Source: a virus
Length of the DNA stretch: 41,222 nucleotides
Direction: 5' to 3' (one strand)
Virus record (IMG/VR): IMGVR_UViG_3300032249_000988
Coordinates: 1-41,222 of that record
The notes under the pieces were generated by a model. It worked only from the letters and a program-made list of their open reading frames with translations, ran no database searches and was not told where the DNA came from. Shown here piece after piece: positions 234-33,706 of the stretch. The number at the start of each line of letters is the position of its first letter. Within the stretch, counting starts at the first letter, position 1. A program made the position numbers and the translations under genes.

Positions 234-3200
234 TTAGGTTCCAAAGGATCGAAGAGACAATTTTAACTCGTCCATCATTGCGGACTTAACGGCTTCTTTC
301 TCTTTTTTGGTTTTCGCCAACAGAAGATCTGCCGCGTGCTTTTGGATCACTGCGTTTACTGGGCCCCGAAGATGAACTTCTCGATTGAAATCCTTGACGG
401 ATTGCTCTGCCGAATCGGATCGCTTAGCGTTTTCGTCGATCGCCAGTACGTTCCCAGCCTCCGATACCCGATTGTATCGGCGTTTGTTGGCCACGGCTCG
501 GTAGTCGTCGGCTTCCTGCTGAAGCATGCGGTTTGCAAACGATTCAAGTTCTACCTCCTGATCGAACGTCGATTTTTCATCTTCAAATGCACCGAACAAA
601 TCGAAGCCCGTTTGCGTTGCCTTTCCAGCGTTGGCCATCTTGCGTGCAGCCGTCTCGATTTCTCGCGTACTCCAGTCCTTGCCTTCGGTCTCTCGATCAG
701 CAAGTTTCTTGAACAATAGATCCTGAAGTGCTGGATCCTTGAGGTGCTTTGCGACGGCCAACGCGGTCGTTTCATCCAACCTCCCTTCGGTCACCTTCTG
801 GAATGCCTTATCGTTTAGGGCAGTAAGCGTCACCGCATCGGACGCCAGTTTCCCGGACATGCTGATCCCGGCTTCTCGCAGGTGGTCAAGGGTTTGCCCC
901 GAGTCTCGAAGGTACTTTGCGGCGTCGATGGCCGATCCTCGGCCTTCCGCGATATTCGCTAATGCCCCTCGAGCGCGAGCTTCCTTGGCGTTTGGCGCGT
1001 CGATGTATCTCGCATTGATGTGATCGGCATTGAGTCTGCTTGCCAATTCATGGCGATGGTGTCCGTTGATCACGTAGTCCTGCCCGTCGGATGGATCACG
1101 CCAAACCAATAGCGATCCGGCCAGTTCCGGGTTCCACTTGGAAACTCCCTTGAGTTCTCCAGTCACGCCATCCTCCCCGATGTCTTTCACTTTGTACTGA
1201 AATCGCTTTGGGTCAACTTTCAATGAAGACGTTGGGACCGTGTAGATGTCGCGGTTGTTGACTTGTTTTGGGGTGCCGTTTTCGTGAAACTTACTTGCTT
1301 GGCTGTCCGTTTGGCTTACCTTGCCGTGCAGCCGATCGGCGATCTTGGCGACCAATTGCGGTTTCGCTCCGCCTGCGCGGATACCGTGCTCCTTCTGCAT
1401 CTCCCGTAGCTGCTTGACAGTCAAGATCGAAAGGTGCTCTGTAACCGTCTTCAGAGAGCTGGGAGACCTTTGGCCGTTGAGCGCCTCATTGATCTTTTCC
1501 TTTGCAGCAGATGCCGCCTCGGGGCTGTTCTTGGCGATGAAACGTCCATTCGGCCCTCTGGGGTGATCGATGGCTGTCCATGCCATACGCTTGATGCCAT
1601 AGATTTTGTCAAACATTGCTTCAGCGTCATCGCCGTAGAGCGACGTAAGGATTTCCGCGATCGCTTCTGCCTGTTCATCGCCATTCTCTGGACGCTCGAT
1701 GACTTCGACGTCTCTGTCGTCATGGGGGACGGATAAGCCCATCGCTGTGAAGACTTCAAGCAACGAGAACTTGATAGGATCGGCCTGTCCGTGGCGTTTT
1801 TGTCGGTATGCGGTCATAAGCCCCGCGAAGGCTTCGGCCATGGACTCGGCTTCCGCGTTGGTTGGCCATAGGGAAGCTTCGCCAGACTCATCGGAGAGGC
1901 TAGAAAGATAGGTGTTTTTTCGGCCCTTGGTTTCCAGTTGCTTCTTTACGTGAACTTCAAAGCTTCGTGCGAAGCACTCAATAGAGCTATTCCAATAATC
2001 TCTTTTACCCTCGGATAGCTTTCCGTCTCTGATCATTTTCGATACCACGCCCCGTACCCGCCTCATAAAGGGCTTGGCCGCTTCTTGCCAAGAGGCCATG
2101 GCCCCTCTGATTTCTGGGTCTGGCAGTTCTTTTACCGTAAACTCATCATCACCCCGAGTTCGGTAGGCTTCGGCGGTGGCCGCATTGACTCGAAGAGGAT
2201 AGCCCCGCGTCTTGTGGGTAACTTCGTGGGTATGGGAAACGTCGACGTCGGACATATATTTTCCGCCGTCGCGGCCAATGCCAAAGCCACCGAGCATGTG
2301 ATCGAAGGCGTGGCCCCATTCGTGGGCGAAGGTTCCAACTCCGCTATTGCGGGTCATGTTGATCACTTGGTTTCCCGGCTCGTAGTGCGCGGCTGCCGTA
2401 CCGTGTCCACGAGCCCCGACGGCAAGTCCTAGTTTCCCATCAAGTGAAATATCTTTTGGGTGGAGCCCTGTGACATCCGCAAGGTCCGCTATGGCCTCAA
2501 CCATTCGGGCTGCATGGTGTTTCCGCTCTGAGTCCGTGACTGAATTGCCCCACTGAAAGCCCCTCAAACCATATTCGTCTATCAAATGGTCGACAGCTTT
2601 GTTTGGGTCCGAAGTTATCGACGCAAGATCCCTCCCGCCCATTCTTTCAGCCTTTTGACCGTACAGGTTCTTAAGCTCAAAATCCTTCCTTTTGACCCCG
2701 GTCTTGCTTTCTTTCCCGAAGGTCGCATTGATTGACTTCCCTTCAATGACATCCTTTGCGTGTTCCGCAGCCTTTTCCAACATGATCCGCTTGGACTCCA
2801 TGCCTTGCGGAGTGTTATCGGCGTTGAAAGCGTTTGTCCACTCGTCTCCGTACTTGGTTTTTAGCTCACTGGCAAACTCGTTCAGCTTGCCGTACGTGGT
2901 CGTCTTACTCGCATAGCGGCTGACCTCAAGAGAGTTTGCCAAGCCGACTAGGTTGTTAGCAAGGTTGTCAAAGCGATTTGCTTTTCTCCGCTCGTTGACA
3001 ATCCCCATGACGTGGCTTTGGAGTCTACGAATGGACTTTATCGAGTCTTTATCGTCATGAGTGGAAGCAATCTCTTCGGCCTTCGCCTTTACGCTTTGAT
3101 ATGCTGCCACGTAGTCACTGCGAAGCTCGGGCGTGTTCTTCGTGTTCTTCCCGTAAACTGGGTTTGGCGGAAAACCTCGCATGGCAAAGTGCATGGCCAA

Positions 3201-5510
3201 GGACGTCAACGGGGCCCGGTCTGCATGTTCCATCAAATTGTGAGGTTCAAGCTTCAAGAGCATGTCGCGATTGACAAGCTTCTCGGCTGTTCCGTCGGTT
3301 TCAGCGGATGCTAGCCCTTTCCAAGCGTTGACCTTGTGGCGAGCTGAATTCTTGAGGTCTTCGCCACGGTTGCCTACTTCGCTGTCGCGAGCGAATTCGT
3401 ACTCCTTCTTGGTTTCTTCTTGTTGGTCCGCAGCCTTTGCGGCCTCGCGTGGATCCGCCCCAGATTCCTCGGCTTTCGAAAATGCTTCCGTTGCTGCCGC
3501 TGGGGTTCCGTCGGCGTTGAAGACCTGCGTCGATCCGTCTGGATAGACGAACGGTTTCTTTTCCTTTGCCTTCAGTTCACCGGCTTTGGCTTCCGAGCTT
3601 TTGTCTGCCAAAGCAGTGTCGCTCGAGGCCTGAGGTTCTTCCTTGGAAGTTTCGGTTCCGGCGTCATCCTTGGGAGTACGTCTCCCTCGGTCCAGGCGAT
3701 CTGCGATCTTGTCTACGAGAGATTGCTTCGTCTTTCCTGCTGCCGAAACACCGTATTCCTGTTTCAGGTCGCGAAGTTGCTTGCCGTTCAGCAACGACAA
3801 ATGCTCAACCAGTTTTTTTGCACTCTCAGGTGTCTTGTTCGACTGTAGCGATTCCTTGACTGCATCCTTGGCCGCTGATACTGCCTCTGCGCTGTACTTG
3901 GGAATGAATCTCCCGTTTGGTCCTCGCGGATGGTCGATGGCGTTCCATGAAGCCATTTTTTGGACCTGCGAACCAAACATTTCGTCGAAGTGAGATTCCG
4001 CATCGTCTCCGTAGATGTGTTCGAGGATTTCCGCGATGGCTTCAGCGCGTTCCAGGGCTTCTTCGTCCGAGTCTTCGCCCTCGTCGGATTCTTTCAGCGA
4101 TAGCCGCAAGACACCATTATCCAAAGCTCTCCGAGCTGCTTCTACGATTGACGAAGCGGAAAGAACACCACGGCCAACCGCATCAACGGGGTCTAGGGTT
4201 CCCATGCGCTGCAGCATGCCTTGGTCCGCTGGATTCATAATGCCTGACGGGTCGCCATGCATCGCTTGGCCTTGATCGGTGCCAGCTTGCTTTTGTCCCT
4301 GTTGCTCCATCGCCGATTGTGCGAGTGGTTTATGGGTGATTTCGTATTCGACGTCGGTCCCAAAATTCATTCGGGCGATCGGGTCTAAAGTGCGGCGAAT
4401 GTCGCAAAGGATTTGCACCACCCACGAATCGAGACCGCTGTAGAACGCTGCGAGTGGAAGCGATTTGCCCTCCCAGGATCCAGCGCCGTCGTTGGAAATG
4501 GCACCGTCTGGGATCTCCATGCCTTGGCGTATTTCCGCATCAAGGTCTTTTGGATACTTCAAAATGTGTTCGGGATTCGAAGCTACTGTTGCCTCTGCGA
4601 TAATCCACTTCTCGTTGCCTTGATCGTCGCGCGTCGACGGATAGGTGAGAGTTCCACCCGCTTGGCGTTGCTCTACGATTTGCAGAGCAATATCCCTTGC
4701 TGGTACCGGGGTATCGTTCCCTTCTACAAAAACAGATTCCTCCGGGTATCCCACTTTCATCCCGCCGTATGCATCTTTGTGCATGTACAGGCGTCGAGTA
4801 TCGAGCGCACCGCCGTTGAGCCACTTGTCACACCATGGCGAATAGGCTCCGAGCAAAATTGGACAACTGTATCGCTCCCCGTCTTCAGGTCGGAAGTTTA
4901 TGAAGTAGCAGTACGGAAAGGGGAGTTGCACGACGCCCATGTTCTTCACGTTGTCGATTTGAACACCCCATGGAGTACCCGCATGCTCCCATTCCATGAG
5001 GCGGCAATCCCTAGCGTGGCGATGCAACAATTGATCGATTTCAATGAGATTCGAATCAGATAGCCGCAACGTTACTTCCCCTGCTGCCCAGCCCCATACT
5101 TGCGATCGCATGATCCCTGGTAGGTAATTATTCCATATCGTTTGGAGTTGTCGTAATACCCATGCCGCAACCACTGGATTCTTAGCTTTCACTCCAGGGA
5201 TCCAAGTAGGCTTCCCATCCTCGCCGATTCCATCTTGATAAGCGAACTCGACTGATTGAAGCGGGGCAGCTCGCATCGCGAGGCACAAGCGAACCTGCGG
5301 ATCTCGCAGCATGACCCGAATAGTCTCAAAGGTGAAGAGTGGAAGATCGCGATGCTGATTGAAATAAACGTAGTGAGGACCGCGATAGTGCTGCGTGCGA
5401 GGGTTTCCGCGTGGATTCTCCTTTGTCGGTACAGTCATGGCTTTTTCCGCATCGCCCGTCGGACGATTTCCCACCCCAACGTACGTCTCGAATTCCCATG
5501 ATTGACTCAT
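234..5510 (-). CDS. Portal protein fused to polyvalent cargo (LPD1 metallopeptidase-like and ParB-like domains)
   Basis: A 1758-residue protein; the ATG at 5510 overlaps the upstream stop as ATGA, which decides the start. Residues 1 to about 480 look like a Mu gp29-type portal, the ring through which DNA enters and leaves the capsid. Residues about 490-600 hold a module of YGDDAE, DHPRGPNGRF and a SAP-like helical segment, and about 1290-1390 repeat it. Between them is a charged linker, then an LPD1-type domain with GLRGFQWGN, GARGHGTAAAHYEP and HEWGHAFDH (around 1062), a zinc-metallopeptidase-like motif. Residues about 1420-1560 resemble a ParB-like domain (INGHHRHE), followed by a helical C-terminus. 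Known portals are about 400-600 residues, so the extra 1250 are exceptional. Polyvalent proteins are known phage and conjugative cargo modules; that this cargo is packaged and injected is inference. Confidence 0.85.
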   Translation of the reverse strand: MSQSWEFETYVGVGNRPTGDAEKAMTVPTKENPRGNPRTQHYRGPHYVYFNQHRDLPLFTFETIRVMLRDPQVRLCLAMRAAPLQSVEFAYQDGIGEDGKPTWIPGVKAKNPVVAAWVLRQLQTIWNNYLPGIMRSQVWGWAAGEVTLRLSDSNLIEIDQLLHRHARDCRLMEWEHAGTPWGVQIDNVKNMGVVQLPFPYCYFINFRPEDGERYSCPILLGAYSPWCDKWLNGGALDTRRLYMHKDAYGGMKVGYPEESVFVEGNDTPVPARDIALQIVEQRQAGGTLTYPSTRDDQGNEKWIIAEATVASNPEHILKYPKDLDAEIRQGMEIPDGAISNDGAGSWEGKSLPLAAFYSGLDSWVVQILCDIRRTLDPIARMNFGTDVEYEITHKPLAQSAMEQQGQKQAGTDQGQAMHGDPSGIMNPADQGMLQRMGTLDPVDAVGRGVLSASSIVEAARRALDNGVLRLSLKESDEGEDSDEEALERAEAIAEILEHIYGDDAESHFDEMFGSQVQKMASWNAIDHPRGPNGRFIPKYSAEAVSAAKDAVKESLQSNKTPESAKKLVEHLSLLNGKQLRDLKQEYGVSAAGKTKQSLVDKIADRLDRGRRTPKDDAGTETSKEEPQASSDTALADKSSEAKAGELKAKEKKPFVYPDGSTQVFNADGTPAAATEAFSKAEESGADPREAAKAADQQEETKKEYEFARDSEVGNRGEDLKNSARHKVNAWKGLASAETDGTAEKLVNRDMLLKLEPHNLMEHADRAPLTSLAMHFAMRGFPPNPVYGKNTKNTPELRSDYVAAYQSVKAKAEEIASTHDDKDSIKSIRRLQSHVMGIVNERRKANRFDNLANNLVGLANSLEVSRYASKTTTYGKLNEFASELKTKYGDEWTNAFNADNTPQGMESKRIMLEKAAEHAKDVIEGKSINATFGKESKTGVKRKDFELKNLYGQKAERMGGRDLASITSDPNKAVDHLIDEYGLRGFQWGNSVTDSERKHHAARMVEAIADLADVTGLHPKDISLDGKLGLAVGARGHGTAAAHYEPGNQVINMTRNSGVGTFAHEWGHAFDHMLGGFGIGRDGGKYMSDVDVSHTHEVTHKTRGYPLRVNAATAEAYRTRGDDEFTVKELPDPEIRGAMASWQEAAKPFMRRVRGVVSKMIRDGKLSEGKRDYWNSSIECFARSFEVHVKKQLETKGRKNTYLSSLSDESGEASLWPTNAEAESMAEAFAGLMTAYRQKRHGQADPIKFSLLEVFTAMGLSVPHDDRDVEVIERPENGDEQAEAIAEILTSLYGDDAEAMFDKIYGIKRMAWTAIDHPRGPNGRFIAKNSPEAASAAKEKINEALNGQRSPSSLKTVTEHLSILTVKQLREMQKEHGIRAGGAKPQLVAKIADRLHGKVSQTDSQASKFHENGTPKQVNNRDIYTVPTSSLKVDPKRFQYKVKDIGEDGVTGELKGVSKWNPELAGSLLVWRDPSDGQDYVINGHHRHELASRLNADHINARYIDAPNAKEARARGALANIAEGRGSAIDAAKYLRDSGQTLDHLREAGISMSGKLASDAVTLTALNDKAFQKVTEGRLDETTALAVAKHLKDPALQDLLFKKLADRETEGKDWSTREIETAARKMANAGKATQTGFDLFGAFEDEKSTFDQEVELESFANRMLQQEADDYRAVANKRRYNRVSEAGNVLAIDENAKRSDSAEQSVKDFNREVHLRGPVNAVIQKHAADLLLAKTKKEKEAVKSAMMDELKLSLRSFGT

Positions 5511-6007
5511 GCTCGTTGCCCTCGTTTTGCTTGCGAATCGACGAAGCGTTTGAAGGCTTCGGTTTTTAGTTTCTGCGAGTACGCTTCGTCCCCGGTCGCC
5601 AAGAGTGCTAAGTGATACACACCCTCGTAATCGGTTGGAGAATAGTCGCCGGTCGCTAACCGTTGCTTTGCTCGGTTGCGCACGATGTTGCTTTCTAGAC
5701 CCAGCTTTGTCTCCTCGGATAGCTGCGTTGGGTCGATGTGATATGCCCAAGCAATTTCGGAGTCTATTTCCATTGCTTGCGAGTAAGCGTCGATCGCTTC
5801 GGTAATCAGTTGCCAGAACTGCCAAGCCGCCGTTGTATCGCACTTTAATCCTTTGCTTTCTAGCAGCTCTGCCACTTGCTTCAAGAATGGCATGGTAGGA
5901 CGCATGTTCGCATTCCGAACTGGCAAGTTGCTGGCAAACTTCGTGATCTTCCTTGCCATTTCAAGCATTGAAACTTCAATAGTTTGGGATTCGTATTCGA
6001 TGATCAC
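5507..6007 (-). CDS. Tail-chaperone-like protein, paralogue of the 9141..9473 gene
   Basis: A 166-residue protein, coupled by ATGA overlaps to the distal tail gene upstream and the portal fusion downstream. Residues 40-80 (FLKQVAELLESKGLKCDTTAAWQFWQLI) match in pattern the C-terminal half of the 9141..9473 protein (FLKEYASALDHLGI, then CTSDTAFRFYNLI). The two are probably paralogues. Residues 80-166 add a helical, charged extension that the smaller protein lacks. Position after the distal tail gene and before the portal suggests an assembly role such as a chaperone or scaffold, but no specific function can be read from the sequence. Confidence 0.8.
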   Translation of the reverse strand: MIIEYESQTIEVSMLEMARKITKFASNLPVRNANMRPTMPFLKQVAELLESKGLKCDTTAAWQFWQLITEAIDAYSQAMEIDSEIAWAYHIDPTQLSEETKLGLESNIVRNRAKQRLATGDYSPTDYEGVYHLALLATGDEAYSQKLKTEAFKRFVDSQAKRGQRA

Positions 6008-24532: not shown

Positions 24533-25072
24533 CTACGTTTGGTGATTTGCTCTCGGCGGAATCCAAAAACAGGCAAGTACAAAAATCTCGAGCACCCTCC
24601 AGAAGTAGATTGCATCAAGCACTGGATTGAGAATCGGAGTCATCACGCAATACCGAACATGAAACGGATTCCTATGATGCTCCGAGTGATGTTTTGGGCT
24701 CTGGAAAATGTACAGACGCTGCATCATCACAACCAACCATCCGTTCCGACTTTTTCTGTGCGCGAGGGCGTGAATTTGGTTTGCCTGTGACAAAAAAAGC
24801 ATAGTCAGCCATCCGTCGCGCAATGGCTCGAAAGCCAAGCAGAATAGCATTGCAGCAAGGCTCGGGACAATCGTTGTGTAGTTTCGCTCCCAGTACGATC
24901 CCTTAAGAAACGCATATTGATTAGCATGATGCAACTGGTTCGGCCCACCAATCAGCCGACCGATAAACGAGTCGCTTTGGGTGAGGTAGGTATCCTCCCA
25001 CCAGTGAAAAAAGCCTGCGATGAAATCTGCAGCCAGCCACGACAGGCAAATAAAAACAAACCAGTTAGTCAT
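24533..25072 (-). CDS. CarF/TMEM189-like lipid desaturase (plasmanylethanolamine desaturase family)
   Basis: A 179-residue membrane protein with the His-rich pattern of the TMEM189/CarF (lipid desaturase) family. It shows FFHWWEDTY (H23, D27), PNQLHHAN (H48, H49), NQIHALAHRKSRN (H101, H105) and SPKHHSEHHRNPFHVRYCV (H128-H138), then LDAIYFWRVLE (D153). In known members these histidines bind a di-metal centre that introduces the vinyl-ether bond of plasmalogens. Hydrophobic segments lie at about 1-20, 65-100 and 155-172. The length is close to bacterial CarF-type core domains. It is first in the accessory cassette. The host substrate is unknown, and a phage-borne member is unexpected. Confidence 0.85.
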   Translation of the reverse strand: MTNWFVFICLSWLAADFIAGFFHWWEDTYLTQSDSFIGRLIGGPNQLHHANQYAFLKGSYWERNYTTIVPSLAAMLFCLAFEPLRDGWLTMLFLSQANQIHALAHRKSRNGWLVVMMQRLYIFQSPKHHSEHHRNPFHVRYCVMTPILNPVLDAIYFWRVLEIFVLACFWIPPRANHQT

Positions 25073-25098: not shown

Positions 25099-25437
25099 TT
25101 AGCCGTTTGGTTTTTCTGAATGATTCGCGTGGCCGTGGCCAAACAGTTGCTTAGGGCATTGCTGGGTATTGGCCTTGATCGAAGCAACGTCTCTGCGGGT
25201 TTCCGACAGCTCCTCGCAAACGCGATCCATTGTCTGCCCGAGTTTTTGCTGCGTAATGTTTGATTTTTCAAGGTTTTCCGTTTGCCCTTGAAAGTAAGCT
25301 ATCGCTGCGTCTTTCATCGGGACCAGAACTAACTGCATAAAGGCTTTCCCGCCCCTGTGAGCCCCGAGAAAGATTGCGCCAATGATTGCCACAGCGAGGC
25401 CGTTGTTGAATAGCCACTTGACTGTTTCTTCCGTCAT
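25099..25437 (-). CDS. Small membrane protein with coiled coil
   Basis: A 112-residue protein with one N-terminal transmembrane segment (LAVAIIGAIFLGA), then a basic stretch, then a helical coiled-coil-like segment (QTENLEKSNITQQKLGQTMDRVCEELSETRRDVASIK, about 55-90) and a His-rich tail. This build resembles small phage membrane proteins of lysis regions such as XhlA-type or holin-associated proteins. No specific family can be named. ATGA overlap couples it to the thioredoxin-like gene. Confidence 0.6.
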   Translation of the reverse strand: MTEETVKWLFNNGLAVAIIGAIFLGAHRGGKAFMQLVLVPMKDAAIAYFQGQTENLEKSNITQQKLGQTMDRVCEELSETRRDVASIKANTQQCPKQLFGHGHANHSEKPNG

Positions 25438-25892
25438 CGCCTCAACTCGCTTTCTAGTCGCTCAACGCTCATGTAGCCAGAAACTTCAAACGTCTTTGTG
25501 CCGTCAATGACAATGAAATGCGGCAGCCGAGAAACGGTTTTCTCATCTCCATATGCGAAGCTGTACCCCATCTTTCGAAACTTTTCTTGCTCGAATTGTT
25601 TCCATCGCTTGCATGGGTCGCACCAGTCCGCAGAAAAGACGATGATCTCTTTCTTGGCGGGCTCCGCCTTTGGCGTGTGGTCCGATACCGGCCTGTCAGG
25701 GTGATAGGGTTCCTTTTCGTCGAGGAAAAAATCCTTCAGCTTCTCGGTTGCTCCGTCCGTTTTTGCGTCAAGTTCTGCTTGCGTCTCTTGGTACGACTGC
25801 CAAAGCTCAACCGCCCTTGGTCCGCACAAAAGCAATGCAGTTCCAACCACAAGCATGGCTATTGTCTTGATGTCCGGTTTTTTGCTTTCCAT
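25434..25892 (-). CDS. Membrane-anchored thioredoxin-like protein
   Basis: A 152-residue protein with an N-terminal membrane anchor (residues about 9-25, IKTIAMLVVGTALLLCG) and a thioredoxin fold in the C-terminal half. The active site is SADWCDPCKRW (C91-x-x-C94), and the cis-proline region is RLPHFIVIDG (P124). This predicts a disulfide-exchange enzyme facing the periplasm or the outer side of the cytoplasmic membrane. It has an ATGA overlap with the next gene and a GAGG ribosome site upstream. Phage-encoded thioredoxins are known, but membrane-anchored versions in an accessory cassette are less usual. The substrate is not evident. Confidence 0.8.
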   Translation of the reverse strand: MESKKPDIKTIAMLVVGTALLLCGPRAVELWQSYQETQAELDAKTDGATEKLKDFFLDEKEPYHPDRPVSDHTPKAEPAKKEIIVFSADWCDPCKRWKQFEQEKFRKMGYSFAYGDEKTVSRLPHFIVIDGTKTFEVSGYMSVERLESELRR

Positions 25893-25909
25893 GGAGTGCC
25901 TCGCTATCG

Positions 25910-26737
25910 TTAAGCTGCGTTGGAGGTAATAGCGCGAGGAGCGACTGCATTGGTTGGCAAGGCTTTGTCTCCTCGCAGCACGGCCGTACCGTTCTCGCCC
26001 CAGTTCTTCCAGGAGTTCAAGATGCGAACTCCAAAAGATCCTGGTTCAACTTCCTCCAGGTCCATCGAGCAAACCGAGTGCCCCCACCAGAAGAAGTCGG
26101 TTGCGACGGGAATTCGATTGAGCAAGCAGGTAGCAAACTGGTCGAAGGTCATCTTGCGATCGTAGACCGGCGAAGACAACTCGACCCATCCTGAAGTGAT
26201 TTTGTGTTTTGCTGCGTTCTGCCAGGTCGCCTCAGTGTCATTTGATCGAGACATGGATTTCTCTTTCCAGAACTCGACGGATGGAACGCCGTTCTTCGCG
26301 ACGTACTCCATACTGAGCGCCGCCCAGCCGCCCTGATCTGCGTAATTCTTTACTTTGCACCCAACAGCATGGGCGGACAGTCGCACGTAAGGCAGGCCCA
26401 TCGAGGCTCGCCAAAGCATGATGGAATGAACCGTTGAATAGACCCAGCAATACCCTTGACCGTTTTGGTCGAGATTTTCAAACGGCTTGCCCTTATCGGC
26501 AATGTTTCTCAAATCGCTAATGCGGGACTTGGTACGCTTCATTTCCTTGATGCGATCCGACCACTCCGATCGCGGAATGATTTGCAGTTGATTCAGGTCC
26601 CACTCGGGGGCCCCATAGGAGCCAACCGGATACTGCTTGGGATCGCGGTATACAAGACCAAAGGTGTTGCCTTGGGTTTCCTTTCCGCCCTGGATGAAGT
26701 CTCGATAGTTGTCGTCATCAATGATGAACTCTGCCAT
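25910..26737 (-). CDS. Papain-like cysteine peptidase (C1)
   Basis: A 275-residue protein; the ATG at 26737 is chosen because GGAGG lies seven bases upstream and it avoids a 106-base overlap with the upstream gene. Papain-type catalytic signatures are in order: Q91 (oxyanion) in DQNGQGYCWVY with C97, GGWAALSMEYVAKNG, H220 in WWGHSVC, and N241-S-W in ILNSWKNWGENG. The first 80 residues resemble a propeptide or N-terminal extension. No signal peptide or membrane segment is seen. It could act on host proteins, on virion proteins, or in lysis; no canonical endolysin is evident elsewhere in the window. Confidence 0.85.
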   Translation of the reverse strand: MAEFIIDDDNYRDFIQGGKETQGNTFGLVYRDPKQYPVGSYGAPEWDLNQLQIIPRSEWSDRIKEMKRTKSRISDLRNIADKGKPFENLDQNGQGYCWVYSTVHSIMLWRASMGLPYVRLSAHAVGCKVKNYADQGGWAALSMEYVAKNGVPSVEFWKEKSMSRSNDTEATWQNAAKHKITSGWVELSSPVYDRKMTFDQFATCLLNRIPVATDFFWWGHSVCSMDLEEVEPGSFGVRILNSWKNWGENGTAVLRGDKALPTNAVAPRAITSNAA

Positions 26738-26739
26738 CG

Positions 26740-27168
26740 TTATCCTCCGGTGTGTTTCTTCAAGAGCGACAGTGTTTTTTCGATAGTTTTTGGCATCTTG
26801 CCCTCGTATCCGCCCTTGGTTTTGCCAGAAGAAATCATCAGCCAAGGATTGTCTTTTCTGGGGCGTTCAAAGGCTTCTCTCCAATACGCTTCGTCTTGAG
26901 ACATATCTGCCTTGTTCGAGACGATTCGATAATCCTTAGCAGCCTCGCCAAGATACTTGCGGATGTCGCTGGAGAAAATCACCGACTTCTCAGACTCGGG
27001 CATCAAGGACAGCTTCGAGTCGTCGTAAACAAGCATCACGCGAAATCCTTCCGCGTTGATAGGGCGAACTCCTGGCGACAGGAAGTCGAAGTTCAGCGAC
27101 TCGCCTCCCCCAAGAAAGAGAAGTAAGCCGCCAATCAACATCAATATTGCTGGCGCTTTTGACTTCAT
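26740..27168 (-). CDS. Membrane-anchored protein with degenerate thioredoxin-like fold
   Basis: A 142-residue protein with an N-terminal anchor (PAILMLIGGLLLFLGGG), then a domain FRVMLVYDDSK ... NPWLMISSGKTKGGYEGKMP ... LSLLKKH. The strand-turn order and the Pro before a hydrophobic strand resemble the C-terminal half of thioredoxins, as in the neighbouring 25434 protein, but there is no CxxC. GGAG lies eight bases upstream of the ATG. It is likely exported and membrane-bound. The fold call is tentative. Confidence 0.55.
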   Translation of the reverse strand: MKSKAPAILMLIGGLLLFLGGGESLNFDFLSPGVRPINAEGFRVMLVYDDSKLSLMPESEKSVIFSSDIRKYLGEAAKDYRIVSNKADMSQDEAYWREAFERPRKDNPWLMISSGKTKGGYEGKMPKTIEKTLSLLKKHTGG

Positions 27169-27173
27169 GTCGC

Positions 27174-27449
27174 TTACTCCTTCGGGGCGTAGATACTGCC
27201 GATTGCGGTTCTCATGCAGTCAGCCCCGGTCTTGTTGTCCTGGGACTCAAAGTACTGCATCAGAGCTTCGCAATGAGCGACGGCCTCGACGCGAGAGCCA
27301 ATAGGCTGGCTGGATTCCGTTCCAGCCGGTCTATCAGTCTTGGGCTCGTCGCCTTGATCCAAAAGCGACACCGTCTTGAGAGCAGGACCGTAAAGGGCCC
27401 ACGCTGCTCCGCCAAGCATCAGCAGAAGTCCGATCCATTGAAGATTCAT
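27174..27449 (-). CDS. Small membrane-anchored protein
   Basis: A 91-residue protein with an N-terminal hydrophobic segment (LQWIGLLLMLGGAAWALYG, about 3-22) and a soluble C-terminal part with two cysteines (HCEAL, DCMR). This is a small, possibly exported protein of the cassette. The stop is five bases upstream of the next start, and its start overlaps the 27446 gene by ATGA. Function is not recognised. Confidence 0.5.
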   Translation of the reverse strand: MNLQWIGLLLMLGGAAWALYGPALKTVSLLDQGDEPKTDRPAGTESSQPIGSRVEAVAHCEALMQYFESQDNKTGADCMRTAIGSIYAPKE

Positions 27450-27771: not shown

Positions 27772-28134
27772 TTACGGTGTGTTTGGAGAGATATGCGGTC
27801 TAATTGCATATCCGGCCAAAAGAGTTTGGACGAGAGTCAATAGTTGCTGGATGGTGTCAGGAGTGATCGGAAGGTTAAGCCTGTCCTTGAGCACTGCATT
27901 TGCAATGGCTGCGGTAAGAGCCCAGAATCTTGGGCTCTGAACAAGCTGCATCCATCCCTTTGTCGCCCCCGCGGATTCCCCGATGATCCACAGCACGAGC
28001 GAATTGGTGATGGTCTGCGAGGTCTCTTCGTCGATCGGTAAGCCAAGCTTGTCTCGCAGTAACACAAACACCAGTGCGATTGCGGCGGTGAGAAACGATC
28101 GGCGGCTTTTGGCCCATTCAACAATTTGGTTCAT
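27772..28134 (-). CDS. Holin-like protein with internal duplication
   Basis: A 120-residue protein with two similar halves: RSFLTAAIALVFVLLRDKLGLPIDEETSQTI (about 12-42) and PRFWALTAAIANAVLKDRLNLPITPDTIQQL (about 68-98). Each is a hydrophobic helix followed by a charged turn, a LxLPI motif and an amphipathic helix. This build resembles small phage holins with one such unit, here duplicated. It is the first gene of the cassette, after a 113-base gap that holds a GGTCTT/AAGACC palindrome (28212..28224). Holin function is inferred and not shown. Confidence 0.6.
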   Translation of the reverse strand: MNQIVEWAKSRRSFLTAAIALVFVLLRDKLGLPIDEETSQTITNSLVLWIIGESAGATKGWMQLVQSPRFWALTAAIANAVLKDRLNLPITPDTIQQLLTLVQTLLAGYAIRPHISPNTP

Positions 28135-32854: not shown

Positions 32855-33706
32855 ATGCGAATTGCTCAAATTGTTGATGCAATCGCAATGGAGTGCGATC
32901 TGCGCGAAGTCACCTTGGACCAATATTACCGAGTTTGCGGAAAGTTCGGAATGTTCCTTGGACGCGACGCGAACGGCGAGGATCTTAGCTACGAAAATGT
33001 CAACGGTTTTCTCCGATCTATGAAGGACAAAGCTTCGACCACGGTCGCGAACTACCGACTGGCATTGCTTCGAGTCTGGGGTTTCGGAGCTGATAGAGGC
33101 TGGGCTTGTGATGTCCATCCTCGGCGAGTTTTTCGGCCAAAAATCCCTCAGAGGCTTGTCAAAAGCTGGTCGCTGTCACAGGTGAAAATGTTGCTCGATG
33201 CCTGTGAAGGGATCCCAGGTACTCTTCGAATTGGCATACCGATCGCCAAATTTGTGCAAGCGATGGTCCGCACTGGATACGACACAGGTCTACGCCCGAG
33301 CGATCTGCGGAGGCTGGAGTGGTGCAATCTCGACTCCGGATCCGTCACAGTGGTCCAAAGCAAGACGCAAGCCTTGCATCGTGCGAAGATTTCACCTGCC
33401 ACATTTGAGGCCTTGGAAGCGATCCGAAATCCGAAACGCGACTTGATTTTTCCCCTGAGCAAGTCCGGAATGAGACGTATTGAGCTGCTCGCCTTCGCCC
33501 AAGCTCGTGCGATCGGATTCAATCGACTACGCGGGCAAGGCATTGGAACATTACGCAAGACACATGCCACAGAGCTGTACCGGACAGAGGGAGCGGTTGT
33601 CGCCGCCGAAAGCTTAGGCCATCGCTCCGGGCCCAGAGTAGCAATGCAGCACTACATCGAGTCGTCGAGCTTGCGACAAGGCACGCTGCCGCCGAAAGTT
33701 GGATGA
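32855..33706 (+). CDS. int: Tyrosine integrase
   Basis: A 283-residue tyrosine recombinase. Residues 1-95 form the core-binding SAM-like domain. The catalytic domain has R147 in TGLRPSDLRRLEW, K170 in QSKTQ, R234 in GTLRKTHAT, H256 in ESLGHRSG and the nucleophile Y267 in QHYIES. The first His of the usual HxxR box II is replaced by Gly (G231). It lies directly beside attP, typical of a tRNA-integrating temperate phage. Its stop codon is just upstream of the rightward promoter. A separate promoter for int is not resolved. Confidence 0.9.
   Translation: MRIAQIVDAIAMECDLREVTLDQYYRVCGKFGMFLGRDANGEDLSYENVNGFLRSMKDKASTTVANYRLALLRVWGFGADRGWACDVHPRRVFRPKIPQRLVKSWSLSQVKMLLDACEGIPGTLRIGIPIAKFVQAMVRTGYDTGLRPSDLRRLEWCNLDSGSVTVVQSKTQALHRAKISPATFEALEAIRNPKRDLIFPLSKSGMRRIELLAFAQARAIGFNRLRGQGIGTLRKTHATELYRTEGAVVAAESLGHRSGPRVAMQHYIESSSLRQGTLPPKVG

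Follow-up and report, generated by a model that had tools for sequence, protein, structure and literature searches.

What is new here is an obligate gene pair. In 40 of 40 non-redundant loci, a papain-like peptidase (papain-A) is preceded on the same strand by a gene for a thioredoxin-like protein (TRXL), which we recognized by HMM in 38 loci and by eye in 2 (L087, 13923-14399; L124, 10859-11815). From the genes in and around the pair, we read the locus as a putative phage envelope-attack cassette, most likely serving lysis, that is built on a protease, and we place the probability of this reading at a little under one half (about 0.48).

The window, by which we mean the whole stretch of DNA that was analysed, is a 41,222-base IMG/VR virus record with a tyrosine integrase at 32855-33706, so that the virus is probably temperate. 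The cassette lies between two blocks, with replication and regulatory genes to its right and packaging and structural genes to its left (Table 1), and its genes nearly abut, with 2 nt between TRXL and the peptidase, 17 nt between the peptidase and the thioredoxin, and a 4-nt overlap between the thioredoxin gene and the next gene. Elsewhere in the window, the left end encodes a 1,869-aa, LPD1-containing protein of the polyvalent type (234-5843), and another thiol-related gene of the same phage (35829-36977) encodes a CxxC-rich N-terminus with weak matches to Erv1/Alr sulfhydryl oxidases (2.3e-5, below cut-off) and to glycosyltransferase-8.

Table 1. Genes of the cassette and its surroundings in the window, with the basis of each assignment.
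Feature	Coordinates	Strand	Basis
Putative holin	27772..28134	-	phrog_9987 holin, E 2.1e-12
Small "DPI"-family protein, single hydrophobic helix	27446..27760	-	Homologue opens sister papain-C cassettes, E 2.8e-37
Small anchored protein, N-terminal TM	27174..27449	-	Sequence
TRXL: N-terminal membrane segment and Cys-free thioredoxin-fold domain	26740..27168	-	Predicted fold, pairing with the peptidase
Papain-like peptidase of C1A fold (275 aa) with intact Q91/C97/H220/N241 and without a signal peptide	25910..26737	-	
Membrane-anchored thioredoxin, CDPC active site, 152 aa	25434..25892	-	Pfam Thioredoxin_2
Small protein with N-terminal TM and coiled coil, spanin/XhlA-like topology	25099..25437	-	Topology heuristic
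Membrane lipid desaturase, CarF/PEDS-like	24533..25072	-	PF10520, E 2.7e-34

An obligate pair of a papain-like peptidase and a thioredoxin-like protein

The peptidase of the window is a predicted papain-fold enzyme with an intact Gln-Cys-His-Asn active site, as the original prediction of a complete C1 peptidase had it. Translation starts at the ATG at 26737, with GGAGG ahead of it, and the residue numbers used in that prediction agree with this ATG; an alternative TTG start at 26845 falls inside the upstream gene and was rejected. Alignment of 32 relatives showed Q91, C97, H220 and N241 unchanged throughout, a PDB profile search matched chymopapain (1.1e-10), and an AlphaFold2 model built from 32 sequences was confident (pLDDT 87) and matched papain-family structures (best Z 18.6, rmsd 2.8 over 195 residues; Foldseek 5.6e-8). 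Against PF00112, the window peptidase scores 16.6 bits for a gathering threshold of 20.7, which its relatives L023 (28.9) and L047 (28.2) pass. None of 40 peptidases had an export signal or strongly hydrophobic segment by a simple hydropathy rule (as distinct from a signal-peptide predictor), and the disulfide pairs of papains are not conserved, which together suggest an enzyme not obviously built for an oxidising compartment of the kind that the original prediction considered. Signal peptides are common in secreted papains; membership of the family does not need one.

TRXL is best described as a hydrophobic N-terminus followed by a small domain (residues 36-142) that is predicted at a pLDDT of about 95 with the secondary-structure order beta-alpha-beta-alpha-beta-beta-alpha. 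Its best structural match is Bacteroides fragilis TrxP (Z 8.9, rmsd 3.0 over 93 residues), and almost all of the remaining top matches are thioredoxins and PDI-type domains. Because Foldseek on its own was weak here (best 7e-3, none below 0.001), we base the fold call on the order of secondary structure together with the uniformity of the match list; at the level of sequence, searches of Pfam, PHROGs, NCBIfam and PDB turned up nothing notable for TRXL. The window protein contains zero cysteines, CxxC occurs in 0 of 34 relatives, and 10 of these 34 TRXL domains have no cysteine whatever. This bears out the earlier description of an anchored protein with a thioredoxin-like part and no CxxC, for which structure prediction had been proposed as the check. 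By the same hydropathy rule (again not a signal-peptide predictor), a strongly hydrophobic segment stands ahead of the domain in 37 of 39 proteins, which are thus exported or anchored, while the remainder differs between proteins: some have an Ig-like domain and a Pro-rich linker, some a TM segment together with a coiled coil, and some a TM segment only.

The peptidase loci comprise 38 in viral contigs, one in a metagenome-assembled bacterial contig and one more on a chromosome, with further diverged members among capsid relatives; by tblastn, neither the peptidase nor TRXL had a match among the known phages of INPHARED, nor had a relative one among the plasmids of PLSDB. The two genes mostly overlap or abut, with 4-nt or 1-nt overlaps as the commonest junctions. 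Searching in reverse from TRXL, using a model built from a subset of the 34 TRXL sequences, we found the peptidase adjoining in 11 of 11 loci with downstream sequence (L187 stops 7 bases past TRXL and is hence uncounted). Recurrence in every relative argues against chance. Once antisense shadow ORFs of the pair were excluded, no other neighbour cluster was common to more than 6 of 34 non-redundant loci, from which it follows that the pair moves between different phages. Scanned against PHROGs, 106 neighbour genes matched for the most part families of unknown function and HNH endonucleases, and none of the 25 PHROG families listed for these genes carried a lysis label; the small membrane proteins encoded around the pair are too diverged for sequence clustering.

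Two of the peptidase genes (L047:4795-6858 and L048:3915-5753) contain 337-aa in-frame insertions exactly before the catalytic Cys97, 64% identical to each other, with Cys as first residue, Asn as last and a weak LAGLIDADG match. A near-identical allele free of the insertion is found at L050:5014-5499, where TRXL is identical (188/188), and HNH endonuclease genes lie between TRXL and the peptidase in L020 and L048. These features would fit inteins and homing genes residing in a conserved gene, and the intein insertions right at Cys97, seen beside an intein-free allele, mark the gene as such.

Exchange of the pair as a unit, and the neighbouring CxxC thioredoxin

The phage-borne desaturase of the window, which resembles CarF/plasmanylethanolamine desaturases, has 41 relatives in viral contigs (62-96% identity) and recurs at the downstream end of the cassettes of sister phages as a conserved member. 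Most of these relatives with enough upstream sequence show one order, namely DPI protein, anchored helical protein, a second papain type (papain-C; xylellain match 5e-10), anchored thioredoxin with a CPPC or CEPC motif, a TM-coil protein in some contigs, and the desaturase. The window has this same order with TRXL and papain-A in place of the helical partner and papain-C, so that thioredoxin and lipid desaturase stay when the pair is swapped, and a homologue of the window's TM-coil protein, which itself had no family match above cut-off, occupies the same slot in the sister cassettes L209, L212, L213 and L215. Exchange of the pair as a unit with retention of the thioredoxin and desaturase suggests that TRXL is probably a cognate partner of the protease and not a reductase.

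A third type, papain-B (39 loci; xylellain match 1.6e-5), follows a gene for a helical partner, exported or anchored, in nearly all loci that extend far enough upstream and never follows TRXL, and most papain-B proteins bear an N-terminal TM of their own. About 33 viral loci of this family (L143-L179) have a mostly membrane-anchored peptidase and a helical exported partner. Partner type thus follows peptidase type across papain-A, -B and -C, which favours protein-protein interaction by TRXL (docking, folding, inhibition or activation) over redox chemistry. Some capsid-related phages carry other proteases, a subtilase (L103) or trypsin-like enzymes (L076, L090, L100), with a recognisable protease in just 20 of 80 capsid-related loci within the stretch examined. 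The subtilase (L103:12131-13971; S8, 6e-47), which is followed by an exported Ig-like protein with CxxC in a capsid-related phage without papain, is possibly a protease swap.

Directly 3' of the window's peptidase, the 25434 protein has one N-terminal hydrophobic segment and then WCDPC, in agreement with the anchored CxxC thioredoxin originally proposed; its Thioredoxin_2 match (1.8e-5) reaches 25.5 bits for a cut-off of 27, the proteins in the same slot of L034, L080 and L102 score above the Pfam thioredoxin cut-off, and both CxxC cysteines are unchanged in 7 aligned thioredoxins. An exported or anchored CxxC thioredoxin stands directly 3' of papain-A in the window group, L034, L080 and L102, a CIPC protein lies slightly farther downstream of the peptidase in L039, and a CxxC thioredoxin follows papain-C in about 24 sister contigs. 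More broadly, secreted Cys-rich ORFs, some of them thioredoxin-like, are enriched directly 3' of the peptidase (11 of 141 versus 7 of 1,613 elsewhere; Fisher p 1e-8, computed on a heuristic ORF set from the same loci that includes shadow ORFs). Small secreted Cys-rich proteins occur just 3' of the peptidase at L018:10814-11368, L030:10800-11738, L045:3098-3415 and L102:6891-7463, and in several of them a (L)PQSTL motif is repeated behind the signal segment. In most papain-A loci the pair has no CxxC thioredoxin beside it, and L196-L204 combine a thioredoxin-like gene and a desaturase with no peptidase within 3 kb, which makes the thioredoxin a common helper and not a fixed part. Of the original proposal that a thioredoxin assists the cysteine peptidase, the association of a CxxC thioredoxin with the peptidase thus stands for several groups; a simple redox trio is disfavoured, as the obligatory partner is the Cys-free TRXL and the CxxC thioredoxin is neither constant nor tied to a peptidase.

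Host envelope, lysis genes and candidate functions

Two assemblies that carry the pair, G001 and G195, contain 138 and 49 copies of PF07596, with 0 copies in 14 control genomes; since we take this family to be expanded in Planctomycetota, we read both as planctomycete genomes and infer that the window's own host is a planctomycete as well. By inspection, the G195 copy of the pair sits among phage genes with portal- and prohead-like neighbours. This phage-like region of a planctomycete chromosome (L058/L059; G195:C1:2742000-2781000) has an apparent trypsin-like protease gene right 3' of the pair. We found mraY in G195 and did not find it in G001, so that one of the two pair-carrying hosts may also make peptidoglycan; a search of both for YTV-type wall genes gave 0 matches with an approximate pattern, a result to which we attach no weight as evidence. 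Published work describes protein rich in proline and cysteine, held together by disulfides, in planctomycete walls (PMC3035269, PMC2754498), and counts the cysteine-rich YTV proteins among the components of the wall, with most Planctomycetales lacking peptidoglycan genes (PMC8567305). In P. limnophila a YTV protein is essential and most peptidoglycan genes are dispensable (PMC10632474), and peptidoglycan has been detected in planctomycetes (PMC4432640). With disulfide-bonded protein walls reported and mraY mixed, a protease-based lysis route would fit.

The original prediction also held that no standard endolysin is present, and this was upheld, as neither Pfam nor PHROGs identified a peptidoglycan hydrolase among the genes of the window. 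Amidase_2, GH24 and SLT, the three families searched, were each found in 0 of 29 records with the peptidase, all of these being fragmentary or completeness-unrated. Amidase_2 and GH24 were likewise found in 0 of 35 capsid-related records, nearly all of them without a papain-A peptidase, so the absence of peptidoglycan hydrolases is not specific to carriers of the pair, and we discarded mutual exclusion of pair and hydrolases as uninformative. The gene near the cassette called as a holin is so by annotation alone (Table 1), and TM-coil genes are enriched near the pair (Fisher p 0.0017). It is the holin-like gene close by, together with the failure to find a peptidoglycan hydrolase, that makes a proteolytic lysis cassette our best guess.

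Under this reading, TRXL, whose N-terminal export or anchor segment is seen in the sequence, should already be in position outside the cytoplasm. The peptidase, which has no export signal, would accumulate in the cytoplasm and be released once the holin-like protein opens the membrane, a step that leans on a holin assigned solely by PHROG similarity. The Cys-free TRXL domain might then act as a cognate docking, chaperone or activation partner of the peptidase and not as a reductase, as obligate pairing and replacement of the pair as a unit suggest, and the anchored CxxC thioredoxin may keep Cys97 reduced, open wall disulfides, or both. Finally, the peptidase would digest the kind of disulfide-bonded protein envelope reported for planctomycetes, in place of a peptidoglycan endolysin. 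More speculatively, planctomycete phages may swap the peptidoglycan endolysin for exchangeable proteases (papain A, B or C, subtilase, trypsin-like), with a cognate exported partner for each papain, and may use an anchored thioredoxin in addition, so that a redox-assisted lysis would reduce as well as digest a wall of disulfide-bonded protein; we advance this wider model tentatively.

An unlikely alternative is lysogeny or surface remodelling, in which the exported partner and the protease trim host surface proteins against superinfection, to alter attachment or to counter an envelope defence. The integrase of the window, a lipid desaturase whose presence in the cassette fits membrane remodelling, and the accessory-module-like movement of the pair between phages all favour this; yet the pair spans phages with different structural modules, is never seen without its partner and has a holin nearby, and the inteins and HNH genes in or beside the peptidase suggest a core, conserved gene. 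We consider it improbable that the peptidase belongs to the virion or serves entry, opening the envelope as infection begins, or that it acts in maturation. It is often encoded near tail or receptor-binding genes and has no export signal, but virion proteins do not cross the membrane as its partner does, prohead-type genes are separately present in the capsid-type groups, and no fusion to a tail protein was seen. Most improbable of all is a redox trio in which both thioredoxin-fold proteins are redox helpers keeping the peptidase active, which draws on the CxxC thioredoxins directly 3' in several separate groups and is opposed by a TRXL that lacks CxxC in 34 of 34 relatives and any cysteine in 10, by the absence of a CxxC thioredoxin beside the pair in most loci, and by the helical partner that replaces TRXL in papain-B and papain-C loci.

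Relation to known systems and significance

The phage peptidase shares its predicted fold (Z 17-18.6) and its Q/C/H/N residues with C1A papains such as xylellain (3ois), cathepsins, Der f 1 and Cwp84, the last being an S-layer-processing enzyme of C. difficile; it differs from them in being phage-borne, in lacking a signal peptide and conserved disulfide pairs, and in having an obligate thioredoxin-fold partner gene. The TRXL domain likewise has the predicted fold of CxxC-less thioredoxin folds (PDI b domains, ERp27, with TrxP as fold match), and such non-redox folds serve protein binding, as in ERp27, whereas TRXL has no sequence match of note and is tied to one peptidase family. The putative lysis cassette resembles the holin-endolysin-spanin cassettes of phages: it has a holin-like gene, a hydrolase of lytic type and a small TM-coil protein, its catalytic domains are exchangeable, and in the window it lies between regulatory and structural genes. 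It differs from them in that the hydrolase is a peptidase and not a peptidoglycan hydrolase.

PeiW and PeiP, the pseudomurein endoisopeptidases of archaeal viruses, belong to a different peptidase family. Like the enzyme proposed here they are viral peptidases acting on a non-murein wall, although the wall chemistry differs (PMC12596118, PMC4456609), and a review of archaeal virus egress describes S-layer-degrading egress enzymes as unknown (PMC4456609). The papain and TRXL module would be a candidate, from bacterial viruses, for an enzyme of this type. We know of no account of how phages exit from bacteria with a largely or partly protein wall, and for decades there has been disagreement over whether planctomycete envelopes rely on protein or on peptidoglycan. 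A papain paired with a Cys-free thioredoxin fold would be a new way of protease control, and both the phage-exit and the envelope questions could be tested directly with a conserved protease cassette whose exported partner is fixed.
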